Origin: Planctomycetaceae bacterium
GTDB taxonomy: Bacteria > Planctomycetota > UBA8742 > UBA2392 > JABWBM01
Assembly (NCBI GenBank): GCA_013360495.1
Contig: JABWBM010000004.1
Span: 1 to 40,782 of the forward strand
Reading direction: 5' to 3'
Length of the DNA stretch: 40,782 nucleotides
The translations under genes were made by a program, and so were the position numbers. Positions 5,426 through 36,495 of this stretch are shown here, in pieces; position 1 is the stretch's first letter; each line of letters starts with the position of its first letter. The notes beneath the pieces were generated by a model. That model searched no databases. It was not told the DNA's origin and saw only the letters and a program-made list of their open reading frames with translations.

Positions 5426-5456
5426 TCGTCATTCCCGCGGAGGCGGGAATCCAGTC
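5426..5456. repeat. REP-like palindrome (gtcattcccgcggaggcgggaatccag)
   Basis: ATTCCCGC…GCGGGAAT stem; same word family as repeats at 14004, 32084 and 36416. Confidence 0.75.
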
Positions 5457-14003: not shown

Positions 14004-14103
14004 GTCATTCCCGCGCAGGCGGGAATCCAGAGCCCATCAAAGGGTATTGCGGGGAACTGGATGCCCGCCTCCCGGCTACGCCGAGGCGAGTCGCGGGCAT
14101 GAC
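14004..14103. repeat. BIME-like pair of REP palindromes
   Basis: gtcattcccgcgcaggcgggaatccag … ctggatgcccgcct…gcgggcatgac in opposed orientation. Confidence 0.8.
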
Positions 14104-23382: not shown

Positions 23383-24870
23383 ATGGAGAACGAATACCGC
23401 GAAATCCGCCTGCAGAAGGCCGCGCGTTTGCGCGAGCTTGGGGTTGATCCCTATGCGTTACGTACACCCGAGCGCCAGCCATGCGCAGCGTTGGTCAAAG
23501 CTTTCGAAGCGAATAACCCTGAAGGAACAACGGAGCCGAAGCCCGTTCCCGGCGCAACCGCTGGACGTGTGCTGAGCCTGCGTATGATGGGCAAGAAGGT
23601 GGCTTTCCTCGATGTCTGGGACGAGAGCGGGAAGATTCAGTTTTACATCAACCAGAAGGAAGTCTCCCCTCAAGAGTGGGAGGTCTTCACCAACCTCGAC
23701 CTCGGCGACTGGCTTTGGGGCAAGGGCGACGTTACCCGCACCAAGACCGGGGAGATCACGCTCTTTGTCAAAACGCTCAAGCTGCTGACCAAATCGCTGG
23801 CAGTGCCGCCGCTGGAGAAATCGGGCGGTTTGCAGGAGAAGGAGTTGCGCTATCGCAAGCGCTACGCCGACTTGCTCGCTGATCCGGAGCGTCGCAAGAC
23901 TTTCGCTACCCGCTCGCGCGTCATTTTCGAGATTCGCAAGTTTCTCGATGGGCGGGGTTTTATGGAGGTCGAGACGCCGGTGCTGCATGCAATCGCCGGC
24001 GGCGGAACCGCGCGTCCATTCGTCACCCATCACAACACGCTCGATCAGGACCTTTATCTCCGGATCGCCTTGGAGCTGCCGCTCAAACGCCTGTTGGTGG
24101 GGGGCTTCGAGAAGGTCTACGAGATCGGGCGGAATTTCCGGAACGAGGGCGTGGACGCCACCCACAATCCCGAGTTCACCATGCTCGAGCTCTATCAGGC
24201 CTATACCGACTACTACGGTATGATGGAGCTGATGGAATCCATGCTGGTTCACCTGCTCAAGACCATACGCGGCGCTGATACGGATCTTTCAAAAGTCGAG
24301 TGGGATGGGCAGGTGCTGAACTTCACGCCGCCGTTTCGGCGCGTAAGTTACGGTGAATTGTTTAAAGAGTGTACCGGCATCGACATGAATGATGAAGCAG
24401 CAGTGCGCGCAAAAGCCGCGTCGCTGGATATCCCGAAGACCTTTGGCCATTGGAAGCTGGTTGACGAGCTATTTGACCGCTTCGTGCAGGGCAAGCTCGA
24501 CAACCCTACGTTCCTGACCGACTACCCGACGGCCATCTGCCCGCTGGCGAAGAAGAAGGTCGAGAATCCGCAGGTGGCGGAGCGATTCGAGATTTTCTGC
24601 AAGGGCATGGAGCTCGGCAATGCGTTCTCCGAACTTAATGACCCGGTGGACCAGCTCGCTCGCTTCGAGGAGCAGGTCAAAAAAGGCAAGGTGGAGAAGG
24701 ACGAAGAGGTTCCAAAGGAAGTCGACTACGACTACGTGGAAGCCCTTGAATACGGCATGCCTCCCGCCGGGGGCATTGGCATCGGCATTGACCGCATAGT
24801 GATGCTTATGACCAACCAGCACTCGATTCGCGACATTCTGCTTTTCCCGCATATGCGCAAAGAAGAGTAG
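23383..24870 (+). CDS. lysS: Lysyl-tRNA synthetase (class II)
   Basis: RYRKRYADLLADPERRKTFATRSRVI, EVETPVLHAIAGGGTARPFVTHHNTLDQDLYLRIALELPLKRLLVGGFEKVYEIGRNFRNEG, GIGIGIDRIVMLMT. Confidence 0.97.
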   Translation: MENEYREIRLQKAARLRELGVDPYALRTPERQPCAALVKAFEANNPEGTTEPKPVPGATAGRVLSLRMMGKKVAFLDVWDESGKIQFYINQKEVSPQEWEVFTNLDLGDWLWGKGDVTRTKTGEITLFVKTLKLLTKSLAVPPLEKSGGLQEKELRYRKRYADLLADPERRKTFATRSRVIFEIRKFLDGRGFMEVETPVLHAIAGGGTARPFVTHHNTLDQDLYLRIALELPLKRLLVGGFEKVYEIGRNFRNEGVDATHNPEFTMLELYQAYTDYYGMMELMESMLVHLLKTIRGADTDLSKVEWDGQVLNFTPPFRRVSYGELFKECTGIDMNDEAAVRAKAASLDIPKTFGHWKLVDELFDRFVQGKLDNPTFLTDYPTAICPLAKKKVENPQVAERFEIFCKGMELGNAFSELNDPVDQLARFEEQVKKGKVEKDEEVPKEVDYDYVEALEYGMPPAGGIGIGIDRIVMLMTNQHSIRDILLFPHMRKEE

Positions 24871-32083: not shown

Positions 32084-32163
32084 GTCATTCCCGCGCAGGC
32101 GGGAATCCAGAGCCAATCAAACGATTTATCGTGAAGCTGGATGCCCGCCTTCGCGGGCATGAC
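32084..32163. repeat. BIME-like pair of REP palindromes
   Basis: gtcattcccgcgcaggcgggaatccagagcc … ctggatgcccgccttcgcgggcatgac. Confidence 0.85.
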
Positions 32164-32176
32164 GCGCGTAGGTATT

Positions 32177-32407
32177 CTACGTCTTGAGCAAAGGCTTGAG
32201 GGCTTCGATCACCTCGCCGTGTTCGGGAAAGCGGCCTTCAGCAAATTTCGAATAGATCATCTTGCCATCGGCCTTGACGTCGAAGATACCGCCCCTGCCC
32301 TGGATCATGGTAGGGGTGATGCCAAGTTGCTGTTGAAGAGCTGCCGCCAGACCGGCGGCTTTGGGTTGATAATTTCACTGCATGCAGTATTCGATGGTGA
32401 CATTCAT
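32177..32407 (-). CDS. SelW/Rdx-family selenoprotein (CxxU thioredoxin-like); UGA at 32375-32377 read as Sec
   Basis: Reverse-strand translation: MNVTIEYCMQ[U]NYQPKAAGLAAALQQQLGITPTMIQGRGGIFDVKADGKMIYSKFAEGRFPEHGEVIEALKPLLKT*, continuous through a single TGA; family hallmarks EYCxxUNY, GGIFDV, K.AEGRFPE. Confidence 0.9.
32343..32359 (-). promoter_or_regulatory. Candidate bacterial SECIS hairpin of the SelW-like gene
   Basis: Minus strand GCCGCC-GGUCU-GGCGGC; loop starts with GGU, 21 nt after the UGA. Confidence 0.75.
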
Positions 32408-36415: not shown

Positions 36416-36495
36416 GTCATGCCCGCGAAGGCGGGCATCCAGTTCCCTTGAGCCAGCATAGGGCCAAGATGGATTCCCGCCTTTTCGGGAATGAC
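36416..36495. repeat. BIME-like pair of REP palindromes between the Rieske and cytochrome b genes
   Basis: gtcatgcccgcgaaggcgggcatccag … ggattcccgccttttcgggaatgac. Confidence 0.85.

Follow-up and report, generated by a model that had tools for sequence, protein, structure and literature searches.

The stretch of DNA that we analysed (the window, 40,782 nucleotides from a Planctomycetaceae bacterium) carries on its minus strand a frame that runs from an ATG at 32407 to a TAG at 32177 and is interrupted by one internal TGA, at 32377-32375. The frame at 32177-32407 (minus strand) translates as MNVTIEYCMQ*NYQPKAAGLAAALQQQLGITPTMIQGRGGIFDVKADGKMIYSKFAEGRFPEHGEVIEALKPLLKT. With the TGA read as selenocysteine (Sec), the product is 76 residues long and has Sec as residue 11, in the context EYCMQ-U-NYQP. 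The following features were assigned to the locus:

32177..32407, minus strand: predicted SELENOW-like (Rdx family) selenoprotein gene, ATG start, TAG stop, 76 residues; based on the frame, the profile matches, and homologs sharing the start and the C-terminal motif
32375..32377, minus strand: in-frame UGA, predicted to be read as selenocysteine (CMQ-U); based on TGA in the same column of homologs
32384..32386, minus strand: Cys8 codon, the putative resolving cysteine of the CxxU motif; based on the translation, and invariant in the homolog alignment
32343..32359, minus strand: candidate bSECIS hairpin, stem GCCGCC/GGCGGC, apical GGUCU; based on a fold of -11.6 kcal/mol and on homolog covariation

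A standard ORF call would cut this gene short, and the first-pass annotation was right that the ORF track misses it. The gene is solitary, flanked by genes for a TPR protein and a PrkA kinase, so its neighbours give no hint of a partner. Separately, the window contains seven copies of a dispersed palindrome, TTCCCGC-N4-GCGGGAA, against 0.46 expected (5432-5449, 14008-14025, 24844-24861, 32088-32105, 32142-32159, 36420-36437, and 36474-36491). Two of the seven (32088-32105 and 32142-32159) lie just downstream of the Rdx gene. These palindromes resemble REP-type repeats or terminators.

A thioredoxin-like fold and a CxxC or CxxU motif characterise Rdx proteins. The translated product matched the Rdx family over the full length of the Pfam profile (PF10262, 67.2 bits, cut-off 22.6, E=1.5e-18), as well as the NCBIfam model TIGR02174 CXXU_selWTH (56.2 bits, cut-off 34.2), and both scores exceed the curated cut-offs. 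The match on both sides of the TGA agrees with the earlier claims that family-like sequence continues past the codon and that a single TGA occupies the CxxC/CxxU redox position. The motif CMQU lies near the N-terminus, and its in-frame UGA falls in the Cys/Sec column of the homologs. The best-scoring NCBIfam model for the product was NF041051 SelTWH_Campy, with 85.1 bits; however, its curated cut-off is 88, and by that test the product is not a member. Taken together, an Rdx-family match with a putative Sec codon at the redox column lies far beyond chance.

For the homolog comparison suggested in the first-pass annotation, GTDB genomes were scanned with the C-terminal part of the alignment only, which kept the Sec column from influencing what was retrieved. 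The scan returned 80 named loci from many bacterial phyla, including Planctomycetota, Acidobacteriota, Deltaproteobacteria/Myxococcales, Calditrichota, Verrucomicrobiota, Zixibacteria, and others. In every one of the 80, a TGA occupies the Sec column, in the context Cxx-U-[NDSGH], and the reading frame is uninterrupted both before and after it. None of the 80 loci showed the random stops that had been named as grounds for rejecting the gene, and the view that the TGA is not a random truncation stands.

The hairpin GCCGCC-GGUCU-GGCGGC (32359-32343) begins 15 nt past the UGA, with its loop starting after 21-22 nt. The apical GGUCU can also be read as a GUC triloop closed by a G.U pair, which gives a loop of 5 nt (or 3) on a stem of 6-7 bp. 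The bSECIS model allows a loop of 3-9 nt and a stem of 4-16 bp, with a G in the first two loop positions, a spacing of 16-37 nt, and a minimum free energy of at most -7.5 kcal/mol (PMC13188914). At -11.6 kcal/mol, with the loop GGUCU and a spacing of 21-22 nt, the hairpin falls within every one of these limits. A comparable hairpin follows 49 of the 1335 TGA triplets in the window (3.7%), and the 71-nt hairpin region folded no better than its shuffles (z=0.41). Additionally, 26% of the gene's synonymous recodings fold as stably, because the amino acids AA-G-LAA in a GC-rich code favour a hairpin. Taken alone, the hairpin is weak evidence, and its fold energy by itself is uninformative.

Comparison of 103 distinct homologs gave a different weight to the same element. 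In all 103, standard pairing links the third-codon positions +18 and +30 (CG 78, GC 12, TA 6, GT 4, TG 3), and likewise the third-codon positions +21 and +27 (CG 97, GC 4, TA 2). At the loop codon, 100 of the 103 have AGT or GGT, two codons that make up about 11% of Gly/Ser codons in the remainder of these genes. Three Cys-type homologs lack this loop codon. Under the bSECIS model, -7.5 kcal/mol was reached by 72% of the homologs and by 23% of synonymous recodings. In a second count, restricted to 48 of the 103 homologs, covariation was 0.203 versus 0.096 in shuffles, which ignore kinship (0 of 500 as high), and it was at most 0.09 in the same 48 when the partner was slid. The covariation looked for in a bSECIS element is therefore present in the homologs. 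The strict stem and loop motif was found after only one of 21,948 TGA triplets in a sample of about 0.7 Mb of the organism's own genome, namely that of the Rdx gene. The significance of the putative bSECIS thus comes from its conservation in homologs and from the specificity of the stem-loop motif. Of the hairpin first proposed, the perfect stem, the 15 nt distance, and the loop at 21 nt were all recovered; the strong part of the case is homolog covariation.

We searched the host assembly (Planctomycetota, 256 contigs, 3.42 Mb, 91.8% complete) for the Sec machinery, as had been proposed. Both selA (558 bits, cut-off 268) and selB (345 bits, cut-off 242, 645 aa, no internal stop) scored above the curated cut-offs and were confirmed by hmmscan. 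ARAGORN and an Rfam tRNA-Sec search of the genome returned no selC (the top match was a tRNA-Gly), and no tRNA-Sec lies close to selA or selB. A relaxed pattern from the anticodon arm to the T-arm, however, located the 3' 64 nt of selC, with a UCA anticodon, at C163:15247-15310 on the minus strand; the contig breaks off before the 5' part. In the tRNA-Sec model, this fragment covers everything from position 26 onwards (42.3 bits, E=1.1e-6), and it shares 87.5% identity over 64 nt with a selC of the same order. The standard finders report no tRNA-Sec because the contig end halves the gene; such a false absence of selC may be common in fragmented assemblies. Neither a profile nor a relative's protein found selD in the 91.8% complete assembly, the best match being a thiamine-phosphate kinase-like gene. 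Since about 8% of the genome is missing and a contig end visibly truncates selC, we treat this absence as a gap, and the incomplete assembly may explain it.

The same genome has ten AhpC-TSA matches, and eight of them contain exactly one TGA, each at the active-site Cys. The contexts are TFVUPTE, TPGUTKQ, and TPGUTTE in peroxiredoxin-like genes, and SWUGAC, TYUGPC, TWUGPC, PGUPSC, and YTUPPC in TlpA-like genes. The eight AhpC-TSA genes with an in-frame TGA, given by contig, are:

C166:12956-13363, minus strand
C32:5361-5726, plus strand
C34:6113-6490, plus strand
C151:7137-7481, minus strand
C133:10529-10870, minus strand
C207:8296-8628, plus strand
C32:4090-4479, plus strand
C214:8917-9102, plus strand

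With these eight further TGAs, the reading of UGA as Sec does not depend on the Rdx gene alone, and the planctomycete host is predicted to have nine or more selenoprotein genes, most of them in a single superfamily. The long ORFs of the genome stop at TGA in 125 cases, at TAG in 125, and at TAA in 90; TGA is thus a common ordinary stop, which points to site-specific recoding and not to a changed code. No convincing further selenoprotein was found within the window, and scanning about 0.7 Mb of the genome by coding score brought back known cases but no other clear one. The earlier proposal that the host decodes UGA as Sec accordingly gains support from selA, selB, the conserved TGA, and the eight active-site TGAs.

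Among 392 sampled Planctomycetota genomes, 142 gave an Rdx match, with exactly one TGA in nearly all of the matches listed, so that SelW-like selenoproteins appear widespread in the phylum (about one third of the sampled genomes). A strong selA match was present in 123 of the 135 genomes with a TGA-containing Rdx gene versus 117 of the 250 without an Rdx match (Fisher p=1.3e-19). The 12 genomes with such a gene and no strong selA match (G037, G064, G075, G095, G133, G144, G159, G172, G217, G265, G301, and G331) include some that are incomplete and others that are about 90% complete. The host genome is the sole one sampled from its family. The Rdx gene is absent from the other 16 genomes sampled from the order (G001-G016), and all 16 have selA, selC, and selD. 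Where checked, selC lies close to selA in these genomes, and their SelD itself has an in-frame TGA.

The absence of the gene from its 16 relatives is what one might expect if a chance nonsense mutation had struck a Cys-type Rdx gene that is now decaying as a pseudogene. Distant homologs nevertheless have TGA in the same column in 80 of 80 cases, the frame past it is intact and conserved, and the synonymous hairpin positions co-vary; we consider decay highly improbable, the conserved TGA and hairpin having already refuted it. A general reassignment or readthrough of UGA (e.g., as Trp or Cys), with a selenium-free product, could be argued from the internal TGAs in eight further genes, but all eight sit at the active-site Cys, long ORFs end in TGA as often as in TAG, and selA, selB, and selC are Sec-specific. 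To this reading we attach almost no credence.

Loss of Sec decoding in the species would make this a former selenoprotein gene whose UGA now terminates, and it draws on the failure to find selD and on the partial recovery of selC. Against it, selA and selB are intact, and nine genes retain TGA and open frames where decay would be expected after a loss; the fragmented state of the assembly, with selC cut at a contig end, also speaks against it, and such a loss is hardly credible. It is very unlikely, too, that selD is truly missing and that Sec is decoded in this species through another selenium donor, with no recognisable SelD.

We are therefore highly confident, judging from sequence, that the locus is a bacterial selenoprotein W-like (Rdx) gene whose UGA would be decoded as Sec via the downstream hairpin. 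The predicted assignment joins Rdx family membership, a conserved UGA, a conserved hairpin, and selA, selB, and a partial selC in the genome. That Sec is in fact inserted, and that the protein runs through a redox cycle on a physiological substrate, is what we infer. SelB with Sec-tRNA(Sec) would bind the hairpin just 3' of the UGA, and Sec would be inserted at position 11 in place of a stop, yielding a protein of 76 residues that has a thioredoxin fold and a CxxU redox pair. Sec11 would then attack an oxidised target, and the resulting Cys8-Sec11 selenenylsulfide intermediate would be reduced by a cellular thiol. The product is most likely a small thiol/selenol oxidoreductase. Besides adding a gene overlooked by the standard ORF call, the analysis provides a sharp consensus for the bSECIS of the SelW family, in which paired synonymous codon positions close an N-GU-N-N loop. 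This consensus can serve in finding and annotating genes of this kind, and in probing SelB recognition.

By sequence, the nearest solved relatives are MIEN1/C17orf37 (PDB 2LJK) and bacterial SelT/W/H proteins. Mammalian SELENOW and MIEN1 share the Rdx fold family and the place of the redox motif with the product; however, MIEN1 has Cys where the product has the predicted Sec. Eukaryotic SELENOW has its SECIS in the 3'-UTR. SelW-like CxxU selenoproteins formed the largest family in the Sargasso Sea set, with 48 genes, and were predicted to be redox proteins (PMC1088965); they were also the most numerous in the GOS data, with 427 genes (PMC2398784). A 2006 survey of bacterial genomes reported ten and proposed Sec as the family's original form (PMC1794560), and a 2026 review includes the family (PMC13188914). 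In Planctomycetes, Sec use and selenoproteins have already been described (PMC4807772). SelW-like CxxU proteins have thus been known as bacterial selenoproteins since 2005, and what is new here is the species and the locus. With the bacterial SelW-like family (PF10262, TIGR02174), the gene shares the CxxU motif, the short single-domain Rdx protein, and a bSECIS right behind the UGA; the new locus differs only in species and position, and its anatomy is fully typical.
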